Virus record (IMG/VR): IMGVR_UViG_3300009514_000515
Location: 1 to 64,000 of that record
Length of the DNA: 64,000 nucleotides
Reading direction: 5' to 3' (one strand)
DNA from: a virus
Shown: in pieces, positions 6,324-62,896 of the stretch
Numbering within the stretch: position 1 is the stretch's first letter
Layout of the letters: every line of letters begins with the position of its first letter
Made by a program: the position numbers and the translations under genes
The notes under the pieces: model-generated
What the model saw: the letters and a program-made list of their open reading frames with translations, nothing else
What the model was told of the DNA's origin: nothing
Database searches by the model: none

Positions 6324-8873
6324 CTAGTTTTTCTCAGACCCCAGAACGGGGTCTGGTTTGCGGAAATAGGTCAGGTCCTGGGCCTTGCCCGAACGGAACA
6401 GTTTCTCCCTGCGCCGGTGCTCGGGACAACAGTAAGACATGGAGTTCTTCATAGAGGTATCGACGAAGTCCTGGTCGCAGTGTCGGTACTGGCACGACTT
6501 CGTCCTCCCCTCAAGGTCTCGCTTCTCCTTACAGGCCGGACAAAGCTGGAAACCCCCGGAAGACTTCTCTTGCCACGTCGACCCGCAGCCCTTGCAGGTG
6601 AACGTCCAGGATGTTCGAGGAGACCTGAGCCGTCTCTTCTGAGCACGCCGATGGCGAGCGTAACAGGTGTCCCCACAGAACCGGCGACTGCTCCTTTTCG
6701 CAAGGAAGTGCTTGCCGCACCCTTCACAGATGGTGGGGATGCCTTCAGAGGCCTTACACGCCTTGCAGACGCCCCTGACCAGGTCCGATTTGCTTTGCAA
6801 ACCCCCACACCTCGAACAGCGAGACAGGGCCATGTCGGGGGCCTCAGAGAGTCTCTGAGGCGGCTCTCCCGGCTTCAGAAACGCCAAGACCTTCTCGTGG
6901 TTCTCCCGATTGCCGAACCGGGGCATTTCGTAACGGAACGTCTCCATACGCCCCAGTCCGAGGTCTCGACAGATTTTGATGGTGTCGGCAACTAGGTTGT
7001 AGCGGGCTTTTCCGACCGTGAAATCGTCGACATTCAAAACCATCCAACCACCAGACCGCAAAGCGACAAAAGCGCGCCTCAGGGCCTCCTGCAGAAACCC
7101 GGTCAACCAGGCCTCGTAGGTGCTGTATCGATTAGACGACTGCATCGGGTCGTCCGCATCGTAGACCTCCCGACACCAGTAAGGAGGGGAGGTGAGAACC
7201 AGGTCGCACGCCGGAGGATTGAAGTCCTCCGCTGGGCTCGAATGCAACTCCACCCGAGGGGATACTCCAGGCACATAATCGTCGAGCCACCTGACCAGGT
7301 GGCTCAGTCGAACAACACCCTCTCGATTAGGGTCACACCCGACATATCGCGGAGCGTGATTCGACAGAACAGACCCCAAAAGACGACCGCCGTATCCCGC
7401 ACAAGGGTCGTAAACGACCCCCCCAGGGCGGCAATAGCGGTCGACCAAAATCTTGGCCACCGACGGACGGAAGTTGTACACCCCCGAGAGCCTCCAGCTA
7501 CGCACGGCCGTTCGAACTTCCGCAGGACTATTCGGACGGCCAGAGAGGGCAAGACGAGAACGCAGGGCCTTTCGTAGAGACTGGGGGTCTAGGAACACCT
7601 GGAGAGGACTCTGCCGAGAACCTCGGCTGAGACCCTCCCAGATGTGCTTGGCAAAGGCATGACAGGTAGCCTGGCCCACTCGGTGGTATTTCAGAGACTC
7701 TCCGTCGCTTCGTAGAACATGCTCCGAGGACAGAGACATCAACGTCTCTAGCTCCTCTGGACGGGGAGACTGATAAGGGAATCCTCTCTCGTGCCAATAG
7801 GCTACCAGGTCATCCAGAAAGGACTCTTGCTGGCCTTCTTCCAGGGTACCCCACCACCGGGAGCGGGAGGCCAATGCCTCGGGAACCTTATCCTCTGGGG
7901 GAGTTCGATGAGGCCTGGCAGGAATTCCCCCTCGGGGCCAATGCTTCGGGGGTATCTTGTGAAGCATGTCCTCCGTTGCGTAGTCCCGCACCAGGTGTAG
8001 AAACACATCCGCACTCCGGGCACGGATGCCCATCTGCCTACAGGTGTCGGTAGATTGTGGGCGAACATACGTATCAAGTCCGAATCTCTTCTGGACCTGA
8101 AGACAGACCTCTTCGGCCTCCTTGTCGCTGATATCCCCAAGGGCAAAGGAAGGGAGACCGTCGCCTAGGCAACCGTCATCGAAATACCAGATAGCCAACC
8201 CCAAGGGACTCAGCCCTTGGAGAACACTCTCCGGGAACACTCTCCTGCCCTCGGGGTAGAACACCTGTCGCATTGATTTCAGCCACACATGCTGAACGGT
8301 CCGGAACGAGAACCCAAAGGTGACGGACCCCGTCCTCTCCATCACCTTCTCCTCATAGGAGATGGTCTTGGACAGAGGTTGGAGGAGGGTGTGCAAACGG
8401 CGTAGGTAGGTCAGCTGGTGCCAGGCATGGCCGACCTTCAAAACCCCTCTCTCCAGAAGATGGCCGTCGCCAAGCATCGTCCCCATCACAACCTGCTTCT
8501 GGTCGTCCGTAAGGAGACTTGTCTTCGTCGCCCGCTCCAACTTGCTGAGGGCTTTGATTCCCCACTTCTCGCGGAGTTTACGTATCGGAAACTTCGAGAC
8601 CCCGTAAAGAGAGCCAATCTGGGTGTCCGACATCTGACTGACCAGGTCGGCCAGAGACGCCGGACTCAGGTCGTCAAGACAGGGACCCTCTCGACCCCTC
8701 CGCTTTCTCTCTCGGGCTGAGATAGTCTCTATACCCCACCGGGACCTCAGACGACATACGGCAACGTCGGAGACCCCATACAGCGACGCAATCTCCGCAT
8801 CCGTGTGCTCCTGGTATAACTCCCGAAGCTGCCCTGGAGTCACCGCCTTTGACAATTTACCCCACTTACCCAC
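6324..8873 (-). CDS. LAGLIDADG endonuclease / DNA methyltransferase / zinc-ribbon fusion
   Basis: 849 residues with a GTG start at 8873, chosen for the SD GGGAGGTGGTTCG. Order: two helix-turn-helix repeats with the same phrase (ASLYGVSDVAVCRLRSRWGI and GSLYGVSKFPIRKLREKWGI); a LAGLIDADG domain with motifs MGTMLGDGH (130-138) and LAIWYFDDG (226-234); an amino-methyltransferase with SAM motif DPCAGYGG (about 489-496) and catalytic SPPYW (562-566); then several CxxC zinc ribbons. There is no N-terminal splice Cys and no HN junction, so it is not an intein. One chain could both cut and modify DNA. The usual roles are N6-adenine or N4-cytosine methylation and site-specific cutting; the joint role is inferred. 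Confidence 0.85.
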   Translation of the reverse strand: MGKWGKLSKAVTPGQLRELYQEHTDAEIASLYGVSDVAVCRLRSRWGIETISARERKRRGREGPCLDDLSPASLADLVSQMSDTQIGSLYGVSKFPIRKLREKWGIKALSKLERATKTSLLTDDQKQVVMGTMLGDGHLLERGVLKVGHAWHQLTYLRRLHTLLQPLSKTISYEEKVMERTGSVTFGFSFRTVQHVWLKSMRQVFYPEGRRVFPESVLQGLSPLGLAIWYFDDGCLGDGLPSFALGDISDKEAEEVCLQVQKRFGLDTYVRPQSTDTCRQMGIRARSADVFLHLVRDYATEDMLHKIPPKHWPRGGIPARPHRTPPEDKVPEALASRSRWWGTLEEGQQESFLDDLVAYWHERGFPYQSPRPEELETLMSLSSEHVLRSDGESLKYHRVGQATCHAFAKHIWEGLSRGSRQSPLQVFLDPQSLRKALRSRLALSGRPNSPAEVRTAVRSWRLSGVYNFRPSVAKILVDRYCRPGGVVYDPCAGYGGRLLGSVLSNHAPRYVGCDPNREGVVRLSHLVRWLDDYVPGVSPRVELHSSPAEDFNPPACDLVLTSPPYWCREVYDADDPMQSSNRYSTYEAWLTGFLQEALRRAFVALRSGGWMVLNVDDFTVGKARYNLVADTIKICRDLGLGRMETFRYEMPRFGNRENHEKVLAFLKPGEPPQRLSEAPDMALSRCSRCGGLQSKSDLVRGVCKACKASEGIPTICEGCGKHFLAKRSSRRFCGDTCYARHRRAQKRRLRSPRTSWTFTCKGCGSTWQEKSSGGFQLCPACKEKRDLEGRTKSCQYRHCDQDFVDTSMKNSMSYCCPEHRRREKLFRSGKAQDLTYFRKPDPVLGSEKN

Positions 8874-8961
8874 CGAACCACCTCCCTGTTGTAGGATTGG
8901 TTCTAACCTGTGGGGCAAAGGACTGTCAACCGGATTTAGACAAAAACACCGCGACGTTCAC

Positions 8962-9032: not shown

Positions 9033-10016
9033 TCAACGAGTGACGGTGAGGCGAACCAGACCACGAGGATTGTACGCCCCAATACCGAGATTCTCGAAGA
9101 CCGAGAATCCGATGGTGCGTTGGCGCGGGTTGTCGGCAGACAGGACCGTGAGTTCCGTGCGAACGGGGATGCGTCCGAACATCTCGGGCTCACAGCAGGC
9201 ATACACGATGCCGGCAGGCACGAGGCGACTGACGATGATTTGGGCGCCCCAGAGGGTTCCCATGAGACCGGTGCGGAGCAGGCTCTGCTGGGTCTCGACA
9301 TCGAGGATGTCACGTCCGAACTTGCGGATGTCGGCGTAGTCCACCGCGTTCATGTAGAGACGCGCGACGCGGAGGTCGTGACGCTCGATGGACGCGAAGG
9401 CATCAGCCAGAACAGCGCCGTTGAGAGGAGCCACGACCGGGATGTCCGGGTTGGTTCCACCGGGAACGCTGTCGAAGCCACTGACGGCGATGGAGTCCAT
9501 GATGGCGAAGACTCGGGAGTCCTCGGCAGCCTGGATTTCCGCACGGGCCAGGTCTTGGGACCGCTCGATGATGTCGTAGCGGCGCTCCTTGATCTGGGTC
9601 AGCGGGATTTCGGGGTTCGAGGCAATCTCGAACAGCGGGAACAGGACGCGGCGGCTCTTGACCATCGCGATGATGTTCTCGCCTTCCTCACCGACGACGA
9701 ACGCTGTGACGTCCGGGTCCTTGTCGTAGATGGGGAGTGCACCGTCGGGGAGCTGCTCGACCAGGAAGGTCTTGCGGCCGACCGCCGTGTAGTCACGACG
9801 GAGACGGAGCGGCTGAGTGAGGCTCAGGGCGAGCTTCTGACGGCCACCTGCGGTACGCAGGAGCTGAGTCACGATGGCTCGACGCTGGGCGGCGGTGACG
9901 TTGCGGCCCGTAGGTCGCTGGAGCATCATTCCTGGGGGAATCATGCCCGGCTGGGGCGGTACGACACCTGTGAATGGCACTGGGAAGGTGCCCTGTCCTT
10001 GGTAGTTCGGGTACAT
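9033..10016 (-). CDS. Major capsid protein
   Basis: 327 residues. The domain plan fits an HK97-fold capsid protein: a Pro/Gly-rich N-terminal arm (1-35), a helical segment, the long spine-like helix around QIKERRYDIIERSQDLARAEIQAAEDSRVF, then an A-domain-like part with LLRTGLMGTLWGAQIIVSRLVPAG and an ending with FENLGIGAYNPRG. The phrase G-x-L-W-G-A-x-I and the terminal IGAYNPRG-x-V are typical of capsid subunits of several large phages. The position after the protease and scaffold genes and before a strong terminator fits the usual order. The fold is inferred from layout and motifs. Confidence 0.78.
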   Translation of the reverse strand: MYPNYQGQGTFPVPFTGVVPPQPGMIPPGMMLQRPTGRNVTAAQRRAIVTQLLRTAGGRQKLALSLTQPLRLRRDYTAVGRKTFLVEQLPDGALPIYDKDPDVTAFVVGEEGENIIAMVKSRRVLFPLFEIASNPEIPLTQIKERRYDIIERSQDLARAEIQAAEDSRVFAIMDSIAVSGFDSVPGGTNPDIPVVAPLNGAVLADAFASIERHDLRVARLYMNAVDYADIRKFGRDILDVETQQSLLRTGLMGTLWGAQIIVSRLVPAGIVYACCEPEMFGRIPVRTELTVLSADNPRQRTIGFSVFENLGIGAYNPRGLVRLTVTR

Positions 10017-10894: not shown

Positions 10895-12588
<1,694 letters not shown>

Positions 12589-12592
<4 letters not shown>

Positions 12593-15500
12593 GATGTACT
12601 CCTCTGTTCTGCCGCCCAATGAGCGAGCATGTTTCCGAGTCGGACCAAGGTACGCGACTCACATTCGGTGGGACTTCTCCGCATGGATTGTCCGCAGGCC
12701 TGGACATAGGTCCCGACATTTGGATACCGGTTGGTTGGGCCCACCCTCAATGCAGCCCGGTAGACATCCACCGGGACTGTAACTCCAAAAGCGTTGTTGA
12801 TGCTGGCCACACCATTCACCAACGCGATGTCACTGGGTGCCATCTGACGAACAGCATTGATGCTCGCCCGATACACCCGACCAGTAAACTCTCGCTGTTG
12901 AGATTGGACCCGAAGAACGGCTTGGCGGACGAGGTTGTCGTCCTCCTCGGTTGTCTTCCGGGCGGATTCTGCCTCTTCCGAGCCAGTCCCCTCCATCTCT
13001 TCTCGAATTCTCTTCACGGTCCGGCGACCGACCTCGTCCTTGACGTCGTCAACCAGGTCTCCGAAGAAGTCTTTCTCGCCACCACTACCACCACCCTCGT
13101 CCTCATCCGGACCGCCGAAGTCAAACTGTGCCGTCCGGTAGGCCTCCACCAGGGTGGCTGCCTTGACGAATCCGCGAAGGGACTCAGGACTCCAGGACTT
13201 CGGGGGAGAGGAGATGAGGTCGACAGCCCTCTTGAGGTTGTCGGGCGTGAGGTCCTCGGGGACCAATATGTTGCGAAGGACGGCGCCCTGGAAAGCCGCA
13301 ACGGCGACCCAGGAGGCCTCGATGAACCGGACTCCGCCGGTCTCGCCCGCGGTCTTGTGTCCGCAAAGCTCAGCGACTCGATGGCGCTGTCCCAGTTCAT
13401 CAAAGAAGATGCTGCCCTTGTTGCCGTGCCGAATGCAGTGACACATCCCCGGCTCGTCCACAGCGACGTTGCCGCACTTGGTGCAGATACTGAAGTCGAT
13501 AGAGCAATTGTGTACCGCCACCCCCTCAACCAGGTAGCTGTGATCTTCCTCGACCTCCATATCGTAGACCCACCCTTGATGGTCGTCCTCCTCGATGGAA
13601 GTGATGGGGAAGATGACGATGTCATCCAGAACTCTGAGGTGTCTCTTGTCGAAGTGGGAGTTGCCCGGAGCTTTGTCGGTATAGGAACTCAGCTCCTTAG
13701 CCACCGTTTGACCAAACACGAGCCTGAAAGCCGGCAGCTTACCTGTGTCCTCGTCCCGGACAACGACTCCGCCGTTCATGACCTCCTGAACCTCGCGGGC
13801 ACGCCCCTTGACGCTACACTCAAGGCGAACAAACAAACCACATCTCATGCTAAGAGCATGAAGCTGGCACGCCAGGTCATAGGAGGTGGTCGTTCCTGAG
13901 GTCTGCCTATGGGCGTGGTTCCACAGGGTTCCATCGCCAGACAACCAACATCCCAGGAGGTGTTTCTGACATTCAGTCGACCAGGCCATAACCTCGGGAC
14001 TGAGGACCTTCCGGTTGCTATACTCCCCTCCGTGGTCGAGGAACCACTTTGCGATGTCGCGTCCACAAACGTGAACCGCACAGGTGTTCCTGTCAGAGCG
14101 ATCCTGTGTCCAGGGCGAACACCCGGGGAACTCTTCCTGGAGAAGCTCCACAACCTCTTGGACGTAGGTGTTGCGTTCCTCCATCGAGAAGTTGAATTGA
14201 ACCTCGACAGGCTCTCCCTTCCTCTTCAGGAAAGATCCCTCCGCAAGGAAGTACCCCAGAAGGCGGGCCCGCCCTGTGCTTGCATCCACACCGACAGAGG
14301 CGAACTCAGTCCTGGGGAAGCACAGGTAGTCTCCCACCCGTAGCTCATCTGCTCGGACTTCCTCAACCTCCTGCTGCCGCTCGATGTCTTCGAGTTGAGA
14401 CTGCCGACGGCGCAGTTCTTCCAGGGAATACGTCCCGTTCGGATTGAGAATGCGAGCCCGATGTCCGCGCTTGAACCTCTTGCCCATTCTGCGGACAGGG
14501 TCCTTGGACTTTCGTGCGTGAAGGGACTCGCCGCAACCGCAAGCACACGTCTCCCGAGGTCGGAGAACAAAGAAGGGGTGGTTGTCTGTCGCCTTGATAG
14601 TGCTCGGCACACCCACGGCTTTGATCTTGCGAGTAGACCAAACTCCTTTGCGATGTTGCTTGTTCAGCACCTCGCGGGGAACTCCCTTGTGGGAGATGAC
14701 CATATCGCCTGGAACGATGTCCTCAATCGCCACCCGCCGACCATCGGCCATTGTCACCTGCGTACCCGCCAGGAAACACCCCATCGATAGGGTCGACATA
14801 CGTCCCTGTTCGATGGCCGCGATGAGCTGGCGGTGTTTGCGGTTGGTCGCAATGAGAATGTCGACGTAGAGGCTGTCCCCGATGTCGCGGGCAACGGCAT
14901 CGACGATGCGACCCTTGCTCTGCTCGGGGATTTGAACGTGCTCAACGAAGTTGTAGCCGCCGATGAACGTCGGGTAGCTCATCGCCAGAACGGGACGGTC
15001 CCACGCATCACAGTTATGTACCGCCATCCCATTAGCGACGTAAGAATGGTCCTGGTCGACCTCGATGTTGTAGACGGGCCCCTCATAGTCTAGGACCTGC
15101 ATGTCCCCCAGCATCTGGAGGTGGTACCCATTCAGGAACCGAAGGTCAGGGGCATTCTGAATCCCTCCGCGCTCCTCCACGCAAGTGAAGTACTGGTGCT
15201 CATACACAGTCTCTCGCACCAGCTCAGGAATCCACCCACCGCCACAGGAGACATGCCATCCGACATGCTTCTTAGTGGGGTCGCTAACCACTCGAACCTC
15301 GCCGTCAATCACGAGACGTTTACGACCCTCTTGCTCAGAACGACACAATCTGGAAGACACCCCCAGACGGCGCAAAACCATCTGCATTTGATTGGCCAGG
15401 GACCGACACGCAGTGCTCCCGACCAAACGCAGGTCAGACTCCGTTTCTAGGAAAGAGCCGTCTCCCTCAAACCAGCCTCTCACAACCTCCATCTGGATAT

Positions 15501-16617
15501 CGAAAGGGGCCCGCATCAGGTCAGGGTGAAGTGTCTTCGTCTTCGCCCCCTCACCCCTTACCCAATGAGAGAAAAAACCTGCCAGGTCTCGGTTGGTTCT
15601 GGTAGTGACGTGTATTCCATTGTCGTCGGCATGTTCTCGGATGACACCTTCGACCCCAAACTCCGACTTGAGCAGCTCGACAATGTCCTTTGCCAAGGTG
15701 CCCGTCTCATCCTGATGGAGAGCCCAAACAGCACCTACCCTTTCGTTATCGTTATCATTGAAACCATAGAGTTCGTAATACCCTTCGGCAGCAAACAGGC
15801 CAATGAGACGAGCCTGTCCAAGTGTCAGGTCAACGTCCTGAGTACTCCGGTCCACGGGCACAGCAGTATAGTCCCGACTTGAAAGGTCTTTTGTTTCGAC
15901 GAACTCTCCTCTCTTCTCCGCCAGCAATTCCCGATTCGTTCGGCGCAACTCCTGGTAGCACTTGGACCCACAGTAGAACTTGCCAAGCAGGTGACTTATC
16001 GCTCCCAACTTCCTGTAGACAGCCGTCCCGCAGTTGGCACAAGAGTGGTTGGGGCGGAACACGAAAAACGGATGTTCTCCAGTGGCGTAAGTCCGTTCCG
16101 TCGTCCCTCTCGGGTTCAGTTCGTATATCTCTCCCTGAATGTCCCGACGGAACGTATGCGTGACCTTTCGGCGCCTTCCGAGGTGGGTAACAACCTCGTC
16201 CCCCACTTCGACGTCCTCAATAGACTTGACCGTTCCGTCGGCCATCGTAATGAGGGTTCCTGGGGTGAAGCAATTGTTGTTGATCCACTGGTCGCACTTC
16301 GGGTCCACTCGGAAGTTGGCGAACTTCCTGTTAGGAGAGAACCCGTACATGTTCGGGGAGGCTGCCGTCTTCCAATTGGGAACCTCAACTGTATCCACAC
16401 TGGCCACGATGGTGGCGTGGCTCAGGAGGTAGTTGGCCGGGGAGAACGCATCCGAGAGGATGTCACTCGCCTGTTCCAGGAGGTTCTTCGGAACGTGCGT
16501 GGTCGCCGTACGAACGTTGCTTCCCAGCGCGTCACCTACACGAACGCCTTGATGCCACACACCCAAGGAGGTGTCTGACCGCGTCGTGACAGCATTTGCG
16601 TATCGTAGGAAGCCCAT
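12589..16617 (-). CDS. Prohead maturation protease carrying two inteins
   Basis: 1342 residues, of which 498 remain after removal of two inteins (residues 116-535 and 614-1037). The first extein part ends QWINNN. The middle part (536-613) contains FVEHVQIPEQSKG with the probable catalytic His and ends MSTLSMG. The last part begins CSIDFSICTKCGN. The joined sequence LSMG-CSIDFSICTKCG matches the serine-protease motif of prohead proteases of large phages, with Ser before M-G as nucleophile. A long acidic, helical C-terminal region follows. The protease should cut scaffold and capsid precursors. Its gene lies in the packaging cluster just before the scaffold-like gene. Both splice sites have Cys at +1. 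Confidence 0.88.
13507..14778 (-). other. Intein 2 with LAGLIDADG domain
   Basis: 424 residues. It starts CFLAGTQVTMADGRRVAIED, has ATDNHPFFVLRP (block B), RLLGYFLAEGSFL and LLGCWLSGDGTLW (LAGLIDADG motifs), and ends VYDMEVEEDHSYLVEGVAVHN followed by Cys. Intact splicing residues. It interrupts the motif with the catalytic Ser (LSMG/CSIDFS). It is clearly related to intein 1 at the ends but differs in the middle, so it is not a recent copy. Confidence 0.92.
15013..16272 (-). other. Intein 1 with LAGLIDADG domain
   Basis: 420 residues. It starts CFTPGTLITMADG (block A, catalytic Cys1), has TGEHPFFV (block B, TxxH), homing-endonuclease motifs RLIGLFAAEGYYE and VVRGWFEGDGSFL, and ends YNIEVDQDHSYVANGMAVHN (blocks F and G) followed by Cys. 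It also holds a small zinc cluster (CANCG, CGSKC). All residues for splicing are present. The insertion is just before CDAWDRPVLAMSY, which leads into the catalytic His region. Confidence 0.92.
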
Positions 16618-17771: not shown

Positions 17772-19838
17772 TCAGGCGGCAGAGAACTGGTCGAATCCGA
17801 GATGGGCCATCTTGTCGGCCGTCGGAAGCTGACCGGCTTCCTGCTTCTCGCGAAGCTCGGACCATTCCTTCTCGGTGAAGTTCGGGCTCATGTAGCCGGA
17901 CTCGTCCGCGTCGCCTTCGAGGTAACCTGGTACCTTCTCAGCAATCTGGTCGGGGTCCCAGCCGTCCTTTTCGGGGACACTGGGGTGGAGAGCGGCTTCG
18001 ATGATCGAACCATCGGCGTTACGGAAGATTCCGACCTGACGCTCCAGGTGGTCACTCATGATGTCAAGGCGGCGGGCCAGGTCAGTGGCGATGTCCTCGG
18101 GGACGTTCATCTCAGCGTGGGCTGAGATGAACAGCTCGGCGTAGCGCTGAAGACCAGCGACGATCTGCTGTGCACCCTTCTTCGTCATCTTGGACATGTC
18201 TGTACTCCAGGAATGAATGTGTCTTGCGGAGACACGAGGGTGGCGTTCGCTGTCTCGGCTCACCTCTCCGCTATTACTGCCCTTCGTATAGAGAGACGAA
18301 CGAGGAAAATCTGAACCAACCCGCTTATGGTTGAGGCTCAGGTCCTTGTCGTCACCCCTATCTCCAGTGTCGACATCGGGGTCGTCGACGTGAACCCTTT
18401 CTCGCCGCTTGTCCTTGCGTGGCGGCTTTTTCTTCGGATTCGGACGGACCAGTCTCTCGGACTCTTCGTCCTCTTTCTCACTGTCAGTCTTCGTCGCTTT
18501 CTTAAAATTCTCGACCACGGTGCCGTCGTGGAGAAAACGGTCCACCAGTCCCGGCACCAGGTAATCGGACTTGAGAGTCGAAGGCTCGTGACCGACGACC
18601 TTCGCGACCTCTTCCAAGGCCTTCTTCAGCTCGTCCTTGAGAATCTTGTCCTTCTCCTTGCGTCCTGACGGAAGTTTCGATCCCTTGCTCCGGACGGCCT
18701 TGAGAGCGGTCACCATCTCCCGGTTGGCGTGGAATCCGCGGATGTCCTTCGCTGTGATGCCGTGCTCCTTGAGGTACTTGTTGACCTCACTGCCGTCGAC
18801 ACAGCGGAGGCCGTCCTTCCCTTCGCAAGTCAGGATGTGGTCGCCATCGTCCTTACCCTCAACGGCATTCTTGAGCAGGCTGACCACCTTCTTGTCAGCC
18901 ACCGTCTTCTGGTGCTTGACCCCACTCTTTCCAGTATAGGTCAGGGTGGCCTTGTTGCCGGAGAACGAGATGTGCTTGCAGCGCCAACCCGTCACCCCGA
19001 AACGGCCCTCCTTCGCCGAGGACTCGTTGCCGACCCTCTCGTAGGTCTGGTCCATCAGAGAGACGACAAGGGCCATGGTTTGCTTCGTAACATCGGAGCC
19101 GTCCAGATCACGGCTGACCTGCTTCCTCAGCTTGTCGATGCTGGTGCGGAGTTTCTCGGCCTTCTCGGCCTTGCGCTCGTTGCGGTTGGCAACCTGGCGA
19201 GGACCGTACTCGTAACGGGGCTTGCCTCCGTCAGGGTCCTCGACCTTCTTCTTGTATCTGGCCGCCACCCTCTGGGCCATGTCCAGGCTCAGGCACGCAG
19301 CCGCCACCCTCTTGGCCATGCCGGCGCCCAGACGGACCTTATGGACCTCCGGGAGACCCCACACCTCCATGGTGTCGAACTCCCAGGCGCCCTGGACGGC
19401 GATACGCTTGATTCGAGAATTGAGGGGGAGATAGGCAAGGGTCGTGTGAGGATTGTACTCACGCCAGGAGTCGGACACGTCGAACCCCGCCTGGCGCAGG
19501 CCGTTGACCAGGTTGAGGCGGTGCCACCCCATATCCTGGTCGAAGAGGACCTTCTGGAATGCCACCGAACGATTCTTGTCGTGGTGGTGGAAGTAGTCGA
19601 CACCTCCCAGGGTAGCCATCACCTTCGGCGGTAGATCACCAAGTAGGTTCTCGGTAACTCGGAGGAATTCTTCCTCCCTCTCAACCGGCACCGACCCCAC
19701 ATATAGGAACGTGCAGTGAGGGGAAGACAAGTCCTCCGGAGCCCTGGACGGGAACTGCTTAGCTAAGTCCGAGGGGAGGGGAATGAAGAATCCCACACTG
19801 TCTCGGGTGCCCGTCTTCTTACCGTCCGCTGCTGCCAT
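17772..19838 (-). CDS. 2H phosphoesterase / topoisomerase IB fusion
   Basis: 688 residues. Residues 1-175 form a 2H phosphoesterase (RNA ligase/CPDase type) with HCT (41-43) and HTT (131-133). Residues about 185-440 match type IB topoisomerase: RVGN (268-271), Arg286 and His289 in GVTGWRCKHI, Lys304 in TGKSG, Arg367 in TAKDIRGF, His417 and nucleophile Tyr426 in VGHEPSTLKSDYLVPG. A charged linker follows. The last 140 residues (from MSKMTKKGA, about 548) look like a separate helical protein; an ATG at 18197 with CCTGGAG upstream could start it independently. The TAATG overlap with the portal gene links it to packaging. It may relax DNA or trim RNA ends; the joint role is unknown. Confidence 0.82.
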   Translation of the reverse strand: MAAADGKKTGTRDSVGFFIPLPSDLAKQFPSRAPEDLSSPHCTFLYVGSVPVEREEEFLRVTENLLGDLPPKVMATLGGVDYFHHHDKNRSVAFQKVLFDQDMGWHRLNLVNGLRQAGFDVSDSWREYNPHTTLAYLPLNSRIKRIAVQGAWEFDTMEVWGLPEVHKVRLGAGMAKRVAAACLSLDMAQRVAARYKKKVEDPDGGKPRYEYGPRQVANRNERKAEKAEKLRTSIDKLRKQVSRDLDGSDVTKQTMALVVSLMDQTYERVGNESSAKEGRFGVTGWRCKHISFSGNKATLTYTGKSGVKHQKTVADKKVVSLLKNAVEGKDDGDHILTCEGKDGLRCVDGSEVNKYLKEHGITAKDIRGFHANREMVTALKAVRSKGSKLPSGRKEKDKILKDELKKALEEVAKVVGHEPSTLKSDYLVPGLVDRFLHDGTVVENFKKATKTDSEKEDEESERLVRPNPKKKPPRKDKRRERVHVDDPDVDTGDRGDDKDLSLNHKRVGSDFPRSSLYTKGSNSGEVSRDSERHPRVSARHIHSWSTDMSKMTKKGAQQIVAGLQRYAELFISAHAEMNVPEDIATDLARRLDIMSDHLERQVGIFRNADGSIIEAALHPSVPEKDGWDPDQIAEKVPGYLEGDADESGYMSPNFTEKEWSELREKQEAGQLPTADKMAHLGFDQFSAA

Positions 19839-21598
19839 TAGAACCGCCCGCCGCCCTCATCGGGCTTCTCGTAACTCATCCCGAGGTACGCGGCTGCCGT
19901 CTCGGCGGCGTTGGAGTTCTCGGCGATGTCGTCACCAAGACGACTGTATAGGCCCCTCAACAGCTCGTTGAAGTTCGGATCGTTGACGGTCATCACGTCC
20001 TTCTTCAAGCGCTCCTGGACGACACGCCAGTCAATGTTGAGGTGCTCCAGGATGGTCTGGATGTCCAAACTGCCCTTCTGGTACAAATTGAACATGTGGT
20101 CGAACGTGGTCTCGTTGTCGCGCAGACCCATGCGGGTGAATGACAGAGACGGGTAGATGACGATCTCGTCTCCGTCCTCGTCCTCCTCGACGAAGCCCAT
20201 GCGGGCGCACATCGGCTTGAGGATGTTCTCCTCGACGAACTCCTGAAGAATCTCACGCAGCAACATGTAGCGCTGGTTGATGACCTCCAGGTTGATGCGG
20301 TCGCCGCTGTAGCTCGACTCGCCGCTCAGCAGACTCTCGGTCACACCCAAACCGGCGTAGAGAAGGCGGTCGATACGGTCGTACTCGCCCGACAATTCCA
20401 GGAGACGACCGTTGGAGGGCATCTCCTCCCAATTGATTTGGTAGTTGGCGATGATGGAATGATCAGGGTCCATCAGGGACAGGTCGATCTGCTCCCTAAG
20501 GGCCTCGATGTCTCCTGCATCCATCCCCTCGGCCCACACAACACGCGTCGGCGTCATGTTGCGACTGGCAATGGACGTCTGGGCCTGGCGCAGTTTGTCA
20601 CTGTAGACCAGGGTGTGAATGACCGACTCCAGCATCGAACGCCCACGGGGCTCGTACTGGCTGCGCTGACGCGCCAGATAGGCCACAAAACTGCCCGCTT
20701 CGGGGTCCGTGTTCAGTGTAACCTTCGAACCGTCGCGTGCGGCGTTGACGACCTCAGGAGGCATCGAGTCGCGGATACGTTGGGCATGGGGATCACCCAT
20801 ATCCGCCTGGTCGACAATACTCTTGGTCTTGCCGTCGATGATGAGCTGGATGAGCTTCTTGTCGGTGAACGGAAAGCTCTCCATGTGAATCTGCTCAGGG
20901 GGCAGAATCCGGATGCGTGTCCATCCCTTGTAGTTCTTGTAGAGCCAGGCGACGTGCTTGTGCCGTGTCTCGGGGTCGTCCTTGAGATCACGGTAGCGAT
21001 AGGGCTGCCCAGTCGTCTCATCGATCCCCTCCTCGACCTCGAAGAATTCGTCCGGTTCCTCGGGGTTGGTGTCCTCACACCAGGGAAACACCTCGCCGAT
21101 CTTGTGATACTCATGAACAATTTCGAGAAGGCGCTGGAAAAGGCCGACCCGCTTAGCCCACTTGGTGCAGAACCGGAGAGACTTCTCAGCCAAAGCATGA
21201 TTTCTGGCCTGAGGAACCCCGAACCGGGTTTTGGAGAGAGGAAGCTCCGTATGAATGTCAACGGCCTGCCGAACGAACGGCACCATGTTGTAGAAGAACC
21301 GATAGTACTGCCGCTTTTCGTCAAGGCTCTGGGCCAGCTCCAGGAAGTCCGTGGACAGCTCTGGGCTGTAGAAGTTGCCGCCGGAGCCGGTCGACGTTCC
21401 TGAGATTCCTCCCAGGCCTCCCAAACCGAATCCAAGTCCCGAACCGAGACCGAGACTACCCCCACCCCCAAACCCGGAGGCGAACTTGGACCTCAGGGCC
21501 GAGGTTACGAGTCGTTGGGGTTTACCCACACGAACGGACCCGCGCTTGGGAATTTTCGCTACTACCGTGCCCTCAGAGGCTTTGGTTGGTTCAGACAT
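19838..21598 (-). CDS. Portal protein
   Basis: 586 residues. Forms the ring at the capsid vertex through which DNA is packaged. Evidence: size, position after the large terminase, and sequence features of large-phage portals: FYNMVPFVRQAVDIHTELP near the start, the stem-like region around SMLESVIHTLVYSDKLRQAQTSIASR, and the phrase GVTESLLSGESSYSGDRINLEVINQRYMLLRE, typical of portal wing/stem segments. The N-terminus has a Gly-rich stretch (about residues 42-75). It overlaps the next gene as TAATG. The SD before 21598 is weak (GAGAG). Confidence 0.85.
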   Translation of the reverse strand: MSEPTKASEGTVVAKIPKRGSVRVGKPQRLVTSALRSKFASGFGGGGSLGLGSGLGFGLGGLGGISGTSTGSGGNFYSPELSTDFLELAQSLDEKRQYYRFFYNMVPFVRQAVDIHTELPLSKTRFGVPQARNHALAEKSLRFCTKWAKRVGLFQRLLEIVHEYHKIGEVFPWCEDTNPEEPDEFFEVEEGIDETTGQPYRYRDLKDDPETRHKHVAWLYKNYKGWTRIRILPPEQIHMESFPFTDKKLIQLIIDGKTKSIVDQADMGDPHAQRIRDSMPPEVVNAARDGSKVTLNTDPEAGSFVAYLARQRSQYEPRGRSMLESVIHTLVYSDKLRQAQTSIASRNMTPTRVVWAEGMDAGDIEALREQIDLSLMDPDHSIIANYQINWEEMPSNGRLLELSGEYDRIDRLLYAGLGVTESLLSGESSYSGDRINLEVINQRYMLLREILQEFVEENILKPMCARMGFVEEDEDGDEIVIYPSLSFTRMGLRDNETTFDHMFNLYQKGSLDIQTILEHLNIDWRVVQERLKKDVMTVNDPNFNELLRGLYSRLGDDIAENSNAAETAAAYLGMSYEKPDEGGGRF

Positions 21599-22254: not shown

Positions 22255-24213
22255 TCACCTCCTTCGGAGATTCTGGCGAGGGAATTGACGGGACGAATGG
22301 CTGCCTCCCAGCAGGGACCGACGACGTGCCGCCAGTCGAGGACTGAGACCCACTGACCTCTGGGCATCCAGGTCATCTCCTGAACGCAAGCTCCGTCCCT
22401 TGGCCAGGTATCTGACGTTACCGAGCTTCTGGCTAGCCAGCCACACCGCGCGGACAAGAGCATCGGCTCGGTCATCATGGAGGTCGTCTCCGCCTTGGGG
22501 GGCTTCGACCCTCGACACGTAGCGGGAGACCTTCTCTTCCTCTAGGAGGAGAAGCTCCTCGATGTAGTCGCAGTGATCCTGGCCAGGGGGGATACCCGGC
22601 CAGTCACTTCGAGCGACACCGTCGGGCGGGTCCTGCCAGTCGTAGAGGACCAGACGGCCATCCCACATCATGTTCTTGAAGTTACGGAACATCTCGGTCC
22701 GCTCGACCGGAGAGAACCGCTTGCTCTCAATCTTGCGGAGGCCCTTGCGCTCCAGGTGCTGGACCAGCGGGATGCCGCCGACAGCCTGGTCAAGAAGTCC
22801 CTCAGAGATATAGAACCGACGGTGCAGCTTAAGGAACCAATCAGCGATGTGCTCCTCGAAGTCCAGGCGGTCGACATCGACGTACTCCCCGATGCCGGCC
22901 CGAATCCACCCGAGGTAGTCCAAGACAATTCTCTGGTCCGGACTGATGTGGACCAGGGCAACGGCAGTGCCATCACCACCCTTGGTGACACCAACGTCGG
23001 CCCCCAGAAAATGAGGCCTCTTGGCCGGAGCCCTATGGGACGGCCTGAGCCTCGGGTCGATGCACTTCTCCAGGTCTTCGGACTTCTCAATCCAGGTCAG
23101 CTTGCGGCTGTCGAACTGGGCGCCGTACTCAGAGAAGAATCCGGTCGGGTCGTCGACGTACTCGGACTCGAAGAAGTTGCCGGATATGGTCGGGTTGACC
23201 TCCCAGGTCGGGGCCTGGATGCACAACACGTCGTCAGGAAGATACCAACCGTCTCGGAACTGCTTGTAGAACCAGCCGCCCCGTCCGTTGGGGGAGCTGA
23301 TGAGAATGACTTTGGCATCCGTCTGTCCGTCGACCAGGGGCCGATGGGGGTTATTCGGGTCCTTCGGCTCGAACATGGCACGTGAGGGGCCGACGGCTTT
23401 GTAGACCTCCGCGGCCGAGGATTGGCCCTTGTTCACGAAGTGGGCGACCTCGTCCAGAATGATGACGATGTTGCCAGCACCGCGAAGACCCTTGGCCACA
23501 CAGGAGTAGAACGTGACGAGGACGGTCGACAGCGTCGCATTGTTGTTTGGGTCGAAGCGCCCGTAGGTACCGATGTCGTACTGAGACTGGAAGCTGCTGT
23601 AGGTCTTCGTCATGTTCGCCTGGTAGGGGTCGAACCGCGAACACCCGAGGAAGTGACTCTTGACCTTCGAATAGAGGATGCCGGCCTGGTCCTTACCGGT
23701 GGCGACAGAACAGACCTTGATCTCCTCACCCTGGCCGATACCATAGTGGGCCTGGGGATTGGGAAGTCTCAGGAGACGGTCGGTCTCATAGGCCCCAATC
23801 CACCCCGCAAGCTCGGTCTTGCCCGAGCGGCGGCCAATCGGGAGGACGAGCTTGCTCCGGACGACTCCTGGCTCGACCTCGCGGATGTTGCAGCGCTCGT
23901 TGTCGTAGAGCCACCGAAGGTAGTCGGCCTCGGTGAACGACTTGAACTTCTTGCGCCGCCAGTCAGAGATGACAACAGCATCCTTGTCCTTCTCGTCGAG
24001 GGCGATGCCGTAGAAGGCCTTGAGGATGACCCGCTGTACCGGGAAGGGACGAACACGGCCGGTGGTGTTGAGCCCCCAGGGCTTCTCGATGAAATCGACA
24101 ATGTTGGGGCCCCTCGCGGCCACAGTAGAGGCGGTGGACGATGACGTACCGCCCCGGTAGACCCCGCGGGTGAGGTCCCCAAGACCAGTTCTGCCCCTAC
24201 TCCTCTTCGCCAC
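22255..24213 (-). CDS. Terminase large subunit
   Basis: 652 residues, GTG start at 24213 with GAGGAGGTAGGCG. DNA-packaging motor. The ATPase part has Walker A LPIGRRSGKT (124-133) and Walker B IVIILDEVAHF (249-259, catalytic Glu255), then the coupling motif region LISSPNGRGG. The nuclease part has the RNase-H-like LGADVG with its first Asp, and DDRADALVRA near the end with the last acidic pair. The longer C-terminal tail is basic and low in complexity. Followed by the coiled-coil gene and portal. Confidence 0.93.
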   Translation of the reverse strand: MAKRSRGRTGLGDLTRGVYRGGTSSSTASTVAARGPNIVDFIEKPWGLNTTGRVRPFPVQRVILKAFYGIALDEKDKDAVVISDWRRKKFKSFTEADYLRWLYDNERCNIREVEPGVVRSKLVLPIGRRSGKTELAGWIGAYETDRLLRLPNPQAHYGIGQGEEIKVCSVATGKDQAGILYSKVKSHFLGCSRFDPYQANMTKTYSSFQSQYDIGTYGRFDPNNNATLSTVLVTFYSCVAKGLRGAGNIVIILDEVAHFVNKGQSSAAEVYKAVGPSRAMFEPKDPNNPHRPLVDGQTDAKVILISSPNGRGGWFYKQFRDGWYLPDDVLCIQAPTWEVNPTISGNFFESEYVDDPTGFFSEYGAQFDSRKLTWIEKSEDLEKCIDPRLRPSHRAPAKRPHFLGADVGVTKGGDGTAVALVHISPDQRIVLDYLGWIRAGIGEYVDVDRLDFEEHIADWFLKLHRRFYISEGLLDQAVGGIPLVQHLERKGLRKIESKRFSPVERTEMFRNFKNMMWDGRLVLYDWQDPPDGVARSDWPGIPPGQDHCDYIEELLLLEEEKVSRYVSRVEAPQGGDDLHDDRADALVRAVWLASQKLGNVRYLAKGRSLRSGDDLDAQRSVGLSPRLAARRRSLLGGSHSSRQFPRQNLRRR

Positions 24214-24224
24214 CGCCTACCTCC

Positions 24225-60580: not shown

Positions 60581-62767
60581 TCAACCTTGAGATGCCATCT
60601 CCCCCCCATAATCGCCAAACCGATCTGGTTCCGTAGGACAAATCCCGCTTTCGCAAGCAAGGTGATCAGGGTCATATGCCTCACGGTCGAACCGACGAAT
60701 CGCAACCATGTAGGAGTCATAGACCTCTTTCGAAATCCTCTCCTCAGGCAAATACACGTAGGCCGAGGCATCTTCCTGAGGCATCACCGAACAAGCTCGT
60801 ACCGTAGGCTGGTTGCGCAGAATTGACCCCATGTAGTCCTCGTAGGACACCTCCCTAGGGTCGTACTTCAGCGTATAGGAGACGTTGTTCCCCTTGGGGC
60901 CAATCCAGTATTTCTCCAGAAGTCTGAGCCACTCGAAGTGCTGGTCAGGAGAGGGTTCGCCCGCGCAGACCACTTCGCTACCCATGAGATCAGCTATGGG
61001 CATGGAGGTGGGGAATCCCACGACGACCCGGCCCGAGTACTGACTGCTGATGTCTTTGACCGGATAACCCCGGAGTCGATGGTCTTGGACCTCTGGCGAG
61101 TCCGCGGAAAACTGAACCCACCGCATGTAGTGGGCGTAGGCCGGGAGGTGGGCACCTTCAGTGCAACTACACACCTTACTCACAGTCCCGCTCGGTTTGA
61201 TGGTGGTCACTGTGTGTGGGACCGAGAGCCCTCGGGCCTTGCTGTATTGGCTGGCTTCGTCCTCAGCAAGAGTGCGCAACTCAGCGAGGAAGCCCCAGAA
61301 GGGCTGGGATTTGCTCTCATCAATGAGATCCCAGAAGGTGTAGCCGAAGTGTTTCCAGGCGAACTCATGGATGCCTGTGAGACCCACGCCGATACGGTTG
61401 GTGCGCTTCACCTCCGCGTCGTAGAAGAAGGTCATCGTGTTGGTGCGGATCAGGAACTGGGCCATCAGTCTGGCAGCGTCCCGAGCTTCGTCAAGATGCT
61501 GGACAAGGGCCAGGCAGATGTCACCGATTACACAGTAACCCCCCCACACGGCCAGGACGATCTCACCGCATGGATTAACGAGGAATGGAAACATCTTGCG
61601 CTTGGCGTACTCCAGCACAGAGCCCATCATCTCATGGGTTCGTAGATGGAGGTTGAGAGGCTTGAGGGAATTTTCCTTCACCATCGTCTCTGGGGTGATG
61701 TTATCTACTCCCTCGTTGTTCCAAGCCATGCGAGAGACCACCAGAGCACCAGGCTCCCCCGTCTCATCGAAATACCCGGCGGAACACATGGCCTCGAACA
61801 CGCGTCGGGCATGACTCGGCGCAGGAGACCTTGCCCTCTCCCAGAACTCCTCGTCTGTGGAGACAGAGTTGTTGGCCGTGTAGAGCCACCCACCCCTCTT
61901 GAGATCGATGAAATCGATGATGTCGCGGTCGCGCCAGGTCTTGACAGCGATCCTTGCAGATCGACGGATGCCCCCGAGGGCCACACAGTCACTGAGGTAG
62001 TGGTCGATGAACATCGCCTGTTTCCAGGGGCGCATGCCGGCCCCTTTGATAGAGGCGACCTTCATGAGTGCCTCAATGAGAGGCACCGGACCTGACGCGG
62101 GCCGTCCCTGCTGACCGAGTATCGGGGAGTCCCTCCTCCGTACAGGAGTGAAGTCGAAGATGAATAGCTTGTTCGCATGTTTGGCCTGCCAGGCAGCTGT
62201 CTCCAGGATCTCCACGACCTTGGCCCAGCCCTCAGCAGAATCTCCTACAGCAAACCAGCGAACATCCTCTGACTCGGAGTCATATTTGTGCTGCGCCGCC
62301 TGGAGGGTCTCGATCCAGGGCTCGTAGTCGGGGTGCCCACCGGTGTTCGTCTTAGGGTCAGGACCTTCCAAGACGAACCGCACATTAGGCATGTTGTCCC
62401 AGTTCACTCGACATAGGTCGCCGTCGTAGCATCGACCGACACCACTCCCCTTCAGGAGGAGCCAGAACTTGGTGAAGCTGAACATGGCCGTGGTACAATT
62501 GCAGTAGATCTCTCCGATCTTCTTCGACTGATTCCGGTCCCCGTGCTGAAGATGTCTGCCACTAAAGGGCATGACACCAGCCCGAGCCAGCCCCAGTGTA
62601 CGACTGTAGTCCACCGTCGATGCTGTTTCGTCCAGGGAGAAATTACCCTCGACCACCTCGGCAACCCGCTCCCCCCAGCTCTGAAAAGAACCGTCCGCTT
62701 TTCGGCGGCTGTACTTATTCTCGAAAATGGACCGGGGCATACCTTCGGCGACCGAAAATGTCCGCAT
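60581..62767 (-). CDS. nrdJ: Class II (B12-dependent) ribonucleotide reductase
   Basis: 728 residues from [11 protein letters not shown] at 62767 (AGAGGAATCC upstream). Monomeric adenosylcobalamin-type RTPR pattern: [97 protein letters not shown] with active-site Cys and Glu, and the C-terminal Cys pair CESGICP. Makes deoxynucleotides without oxygen, needing coenzyme B12 from the host. The stop codon TGA is supplied by the IS end; without the IS the protein would end QGSSLLG with TAA. The five-residue loss after the Cys pair is probably harmless. Confidence 0.92.
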
Positions 62768-62896
62768 GGATTCCTCTGAAACAGAGCCGGATTGAAGCAA
62801 AAATAAACCCCCACTACCGGCACTCGCAGGGGAATCCACCCTTAGTTTTTGAACCACTAAGGACGAGGTATCGAACGCCTATCATCCCCGCTACCA
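62768..62896 (-). other. Leader between delta subunit and reductase genes
   Basis: 129 bp without a gene. In the minus-strand RNA CTTAG-tggttcaaaaa-CTAAG forms a small hairpin, and TAGTGGGGGTTTATTTTTGC could be the 3' part of a weak terminator (only a 4-bp CCCC/GGGG stem). No cobalamin-riboswitch B12 box is visible, and no copy of the GGTCCA/GTATA promoter. Confidence 0.4.

Follow-up and report, generated by a model that had tools for sequence, protein, structure and literature searches.

A gene on the minus strand of a 64,000-nucleotide stretch of viral DNA (hereafter, the window; positions 1 to 64,000 of the 86.6-kb IMG/VR virus record IMGVR_UViG_3300009514_000515) in all likelihood encodes the head maturation protease of a tailed phage interrupted by two independent, mobile, self-excising inteins, each combining a Hint domain with a LAGLIDADG endonuclease. 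The frame at 12589-16617 starts with ATG and extends over 1342 amino acids without an internal stop; removal of the two inteins, denoted a and b, leaves a joined extein of 498 amino acids, the length given by an earlier interpretation of the letters without database searches (the sequence-only reading). The close relatives of the window phage are jumbo phages, and all results on the window gene and its relatives are computations. The precursor consists of the following parts:

12589..16617, minus strand: precursor of the prohead (head maturation) protease, 1342 aa including both inteins (uninterrupted ORF; PHROG matches of the joined extein)
16273..16617, minus strand: N-extein, aa 1-115, with the C-terminal letters CDQWINNN (junction alignment with intein-free alleles)
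15013..16272, minus strand: intein a, aa 116-535, 420 aa, Hint and LAGLIDADG endonuclease (Pfam and NCBIfam models; site-a clade)
14779..15012, minus strand: middle extein, aa 536-613 (His and Ser invariant in 112 homologues)
14938-14940, minus strand: catalytic-type His560 (FVEH) in the middle extein
14785-14787, minus strand: Ser611 (LSMG) in the middle extein
13507..14778, minus strand: intein b, aa 614-1037, 424 aa (Pfam; AF2 model and PI-SceI match; site-b clade)
12589..13506, minus strand: C-extein, aa 1038-1342 plus stop (junction alignment; homologue model)

The C-extein comprises a Cys-rich loop, the FIEASWVxxxAF motif, an acidic linker and a helical C-terminal part. Intein b is inserted two residues past Ser611, inside LSMG|CSID, where the sequence-only reading had located it; intein a, placed by the same reading just before the segment with the probable catalytic His, lies 24 residues N-terminal of that residue in the numbering of the joined extein and hence not directly in front of it. 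The minus-strand location of the gene is a further detail to add to that reading.

Both insertions carry complete sets of splice residues. Intein a possesses Cys1, TGEH in block B (T179-x-x-H182), the terminal VHN (H534-N535) and Cys536 at the +1 position, along with the endonuclease motifs LIGLFAAEG and WFEGDG, in which both LAGLIDADG acids are present (E278 and D386). The corresponding residues of intein b are Cys1 (Cys614), TDNH (T677-x-x-H680), VHN (H1036-N1037) and +1 Cys1038, and its endonuclease motifs are LLGYFLAEG and WLSGDG, with the acids E793 and D895. Pfam searches of the precursor yielded Intein_splicing (E = 3e-22), LAGLIDADG_3 (4.7e-18) and Hom_end_hint (2.4e-17), and the NCBIfam intein C-terminal model matched both a and b. 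The AF2 model of intein b (pLDDT 91) aligned with PI-SceI over its full length in Foldseek (E = 5e-20) and also matched TliVMA, and the Hint fold of intein a was identified by Pfam only. In an alignment of four proteins, intein-free alleles cross both junctions without a gap (NNN|CDAW vs NSN|LDSW; LSMG|CSID), and the N preceding site a and the G and C flanking site b are invariant in an alignment of 112 proteins. Judged by these residue sets, family matches and empty-site alleles, a and b are canonical class 1, LAGLIDADG-bearing inteins, as had been claimed; we infer from the complete residue sets that both splice, and both are predicted to be active endonucleases that cut empty alleles.

The joined extein is, by profile and sequence comparison, a head maturation (prohead) protease. 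Compared with PHROG, it matched phrog_2774 (E = 6.9e-15) and the head maturation protease family phrog_18299 (E = 6.2e-7), and 48 of 48 intein-free homologues matched the latter family, the best at 2.6e-17. The tblastn hits of the extein included the head maturation protease of Tunturiibacter phage Tunturi_5 (3e-42), the capsid maturation protease of Gordonia phage Stormageddon (3e-11) and, over the whole length, an unannotated 485-kb phage (3e-102). For L014, a homologue without an intein, the Foldseek search with the structural model (pLDDT 76.5) gave BFVD matches to viral prohead proteases, with E-values of 1e-8 or better, and top PDB matches to herpesvirus maturation proteases (assemblins), at a non-significant E-value of 0.025. 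The assignment to prohead proteases made in the sequence-only reading is thus borne out by PHROG, tblastn and Foldseek. The Pfam search of the extein gave no match, and the sequence search of the PDB with the extein profile gave no significant one. The His of FVEH, the Ser of LSMG, and the Glu and Ser of FIEASWV are invariant in 112 distinct proteins. Alignments of the extein profile with T4 gp21 (E = 0.16) and HK97 gp4 (E = 0.03), both weak and not significant, fall on corresponding motifs: GMSVGFSV with TLSMGCSV, and VNRNKRLYPKRIL with INNNNDCWDRDVL. The motif order His - Ser - ExSxV..PA is common to herpesvirus assemblin, HK97 gp4, T4 gp21 and the window protease, which differs from the others in its long Cys-rich loop, its helical C-terminal part and its inteins.

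The position of the gene in a portal-protease-scaffold-capsid order also points to this identity. Terminase, portal, a topoisomerase fusion, two small genes, the protease, a probable scaffold, a 249-aa protein and the major head protein follow each other, all on the minus strand; the product of the probable scaffold gene had no family match and was assigned by position and composition only:

22258..24216, minus strand: terminase large subunit (phrog_2, E = 5.9e-20)
19838..21598, minus strand: portal protein (phrog_16240, E = 3.1e-26)
10895..12619, minus strand: probable scaffold, 574 aa, acidic, with long Gln-rich and acidic runs
9033..10016, minus strand: major head protein (phrog_2522, E = 5.6e-51)

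Relatives of the protease show how often this gene is invaded. An alignment search recovered 183 relatives, and the best 80 of the 183 were intein-free, as expected from a ranking that favours uninterrupted genes; carriers were added by junction-directed searches and a genome scan. In total, 36 distinct inteins were delimited in 32 distinct genes, at seven sites around the active site, given here from the N-terminal to the C-terminal end of the protease domain:

Site e (H|CTIV), the most N-terminal: L152
Site a2 (N|CNGD): L132, L143 and L257
Site a (NNN|C or S, DAW): the window, L004 and L094, with a mini-intein in the distant L141 that was placed by eye
Site c (NF|CEH, directly before the catalytic-type His): L093 (c only) and L112
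Site b (LSMG|C): about 19 genes, many with b only, including mini-inteins in L112 and L130
Site b' (LSMGLN|C): Eggerthella phage LE2-3
Site d (C of ETxxC), the most C-terminal: L101, L129, L247, L285, L287 and L135

Inteins a and b occur at the same two sites in three IMG/VR contigs (L004-L006; 372, 497 and 87 kb), at about 53% identity, and a comparison of the window with L004 gave 64% identity for intein a, 59% for intein b and 62% for the extein core. An assembly or sequencing error, be it in a splice residue or in the two-intein gene as a whole, is excluded in practice by this recurrence. L094 contains intein a only, with Ser at the +1 position. Double occupancy is present in at least four lineages (a and b in the window and L004-L006, b and d in L101, c and a mini-b in L112) and applies to 4 of the 32 genes. 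The protease is a repeated target, and the rarity that the sequence-only reading ascribed to two inteins in this protein is not supported. Among 112 distinct protease cores, sampled non-randomly, 85 lack an intein at any of the seven sites. The endonuclease region is kept in 33 of the 36 inteins; the three others are mini-inteins and candidates for fast-splicing tools:

L112, 5037-5438: mini-intein of 134 aa, without endonuclease
L130, 5001-5546: mini-intein of 182 aa, without endonuclease
L141, 4060-4599: mini-intein of 180 aa, without endonuclease

The Eggerthella phage LE2-3 gene LE23_71 (L011 2587-5700), labelled as a tRNA synthetase, belongs to the protease relatives and carries an intein two residues downstream of site b. 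Weak intein matches in LR756511, Enterococcus phage vB_Efa29212_3e and MT835477 were rejected because, as the translated flanks were read, these inteins reside in ribonucleotide reductase or DNA methyltransferase rather than in proteases.

In a tree of the 33 endonuclease-bearing inteins, three sites each form a single clade: site b with 17 rows (support 100/99), site a with 3 (97/87) and site c with 2 (100/100). Five of the six site-d inteins form one clade that is sister to b. The nearest neighbours of the window's intein a are the a inteins of L004 and L094, and its intein b falls inside the 17-member b clade; because they belong to different clades, the two are separate lineages of old standing. 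Many branches of the extein tree are weak; on it, the occupancy of site b requires 13 changes and occupancy at any site 18, and the double carriers, the window and L004, are not neighbours. The +1 residue of site a in the 85 intein-free alleles is Leu, Gly, Asn or others and never Cys, that of site c is mostly Val, and the Cys residues of sites b and d are invariant, so that a and c brought their own +1 Cys, whereas b and d use a native one.

Formal tree conflict was rejected as proof of homing at site b, given that a clade of L108 and L111 on the exteins is not rejected (p-AU 0.3) and that the extein split is also present, weakly, in the intein-b tree, which is in no clear conflict with the extein tree. 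Hence horizontal movement at this site rests on patchiness and on the contrast between L113 and L115, which share intein b at 91% identity and the extein at 75%, the reverse holding for other pairs. Loss rather than gain could account for part of the patchy occupancy. Grouping of the inteins by site, patchy occupancy and the contrast between L113 and L115 together form, on these comparisons, the pattern of homing elements in an essential gene and not that of a conserved activation timer.

We propose that each intein would excise by the class 1 path (Cys1, terminal Asn and +1 Cys), and that excision of both would rejoin the active, 498-aa protease. As long as either intein is still in place, the Ser strand or the catalytic domain would be split and the protease inactive. 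In the L014 model, the strand 180-187 carries the nucleophile Ser182 and the site-b insertion falls after Gly184; because intein b splits this strand two residues after the Ser, the unspliced precursor is very probably inactive, and the earlier statement that the protease is inactive until spliced is sound as a structural inference. During co-infection, the endonuclease parts would copy each intein into empty protease genes of related phages, and the essential, strongly conserved active-site region would shield the inteins from deletion. Such endonuclease-driven spread into empty alleles would account for the sites, the clades and the patchiness.

The sequence-only reading suggested that the inteins could time head maturation. 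In the most far-reaching form of this idea, the two inteins would constitute a double zymogen lock in which slow or conditional splicing of one or both (responding, for example, to redox state, zinc or prohead assembly) keeps the protease from acting before the prohead has been assembled. Such gating would fit the splitting of the catalytic domain by both insertions, with b inside strand 180-187, which bears the nucleophile in the L014 model, and conditional splicing is documented for other inteins in the accessible text of PMC6195587, PMC7360933 and PMC5790916. However, 85 of the 112 distinct sampled homologues have no intein, the insertion sites vary among lineages, the retained endonuclease motifs point to selection for mobility, and relatives without inteins must control their prohead proteases by other means. 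With so many relatives free of inteins, and with sites that vary, splicing-timed head maturation is an unnecessary assumption, and the sequence and structure analyses revealed no evidence of conditional splicing of a or b; we consider such a lock improbable and do not retain the timing claim.

The other alternatives are even less plausible. Decay of the inteins with loss of splicing, which would turn the gene into a pseudogene or its product into a fusion of unknown use, is very unlikely, considering that all splice-critical and endonuclease residues are intact, the frame is open over 4 kb, and both the extein and the two inteins are conserved between the window and L004. A recent duplication of one intein within the window gene is hardly credible: although the homology of the two inteins is clear (30% identity between a and b, E = 9e-46), they belong to different clades of the intein tree, which rules out a tandem duplication. 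Group I introns were dismissed as well, since no stop interrupts the frame and a full set of splice blocks is present in each insertion. Two independent mobile inteins in a protease gene thus remain the preferred reading.

Compared with PI-SceI and the VMA-type inteins, a and b share the splice blocks and two LAGLIDADG motifs, and b shares the full-length fold; they differ in their host, a viral prohead protease, and in extra Cys/His-rich segments. These segments lie between block B and the endonuclease, with the pattern CxxC..CxxxC in a and CxCGCG..F..GH in b and d, and are possibly zinc-binding parts involved in DNA recognition or a zinc- or redox-sensitive element.

Inteins of mycobacteriophages and other phages are described in TerL, portal protein, RecB-like nuclease, NrdA and helicase (accessible portions of PMC5050341, PMC9040626 and PMC7344957). 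These, too, reside in essential genes and at functional motifs, with several sites per host gene in the case of TerL; in contrast to the window gene, a head maturation protease with seven sites, the accessible portions name neither a protease nor a prohead protein as host. The emphasis of the mycobacteriophage survey PMC5050341 is on TerL and RecB-like hosts, with portal proteins also mentioned; in its accessible text, no word begins with 'capsid' or 'prohead', and 'protease' occurs once. A parallel to two inteins in one morphogenesis gene is the TerL of a crAss-like phage with two Hint-Hop inteins (accessible text of PMC7886860), where the host is the packaging ATPase and not a protease, and the endonuclease association is different. 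The open-access literature, as far as its text was accessible, yielded no report of an intein in a prohead, head or capsid maturation protease. Provisionally, the elements are of a known kind and their host protein, the head maturation protease, seems to be new; this adds to the intein targets a protein of large phages whose active site is surrounded by at least seven closely spaced insertion points. Empty, singly occupied and doubly occupied alleles form a natural series in which it can be asked why inteins choose active sites, how two of them can share a gene, and whether a protease can be gated by splicing. Inteins also account for very long or misannotated proteases, such as the LE2-3 gene, and several new inteins become available, three of them without endonuclease.

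No intein host other than the protease was found in the 86.6-kb record. Ribonucleotide reductase is a favourite intein host in phages, and the one encoded at 60581-62878 (minus strand) is without an intein. Between the portal and protease genes, 17772-19838 (minus strand) encodes a 688-aa protein in which a 2'-5' RNA ligase-like domain (E = 1.2e-5, just under the curated cut-off) is joined to a type IB DNA topoisomerase core (E = 3.5e-29); a topoisomerase-like part was likewise recognized, by eye, in the relative L122. Adjoining the major head protein gene, 6324-8957 (minus strand) encodes an 877-aa fusion of a LAGLIDADG_2 endonuclease (E = 2.8e-18) to a DNA methylase domain, and a protein read as similar follows the capsid gene in L093.
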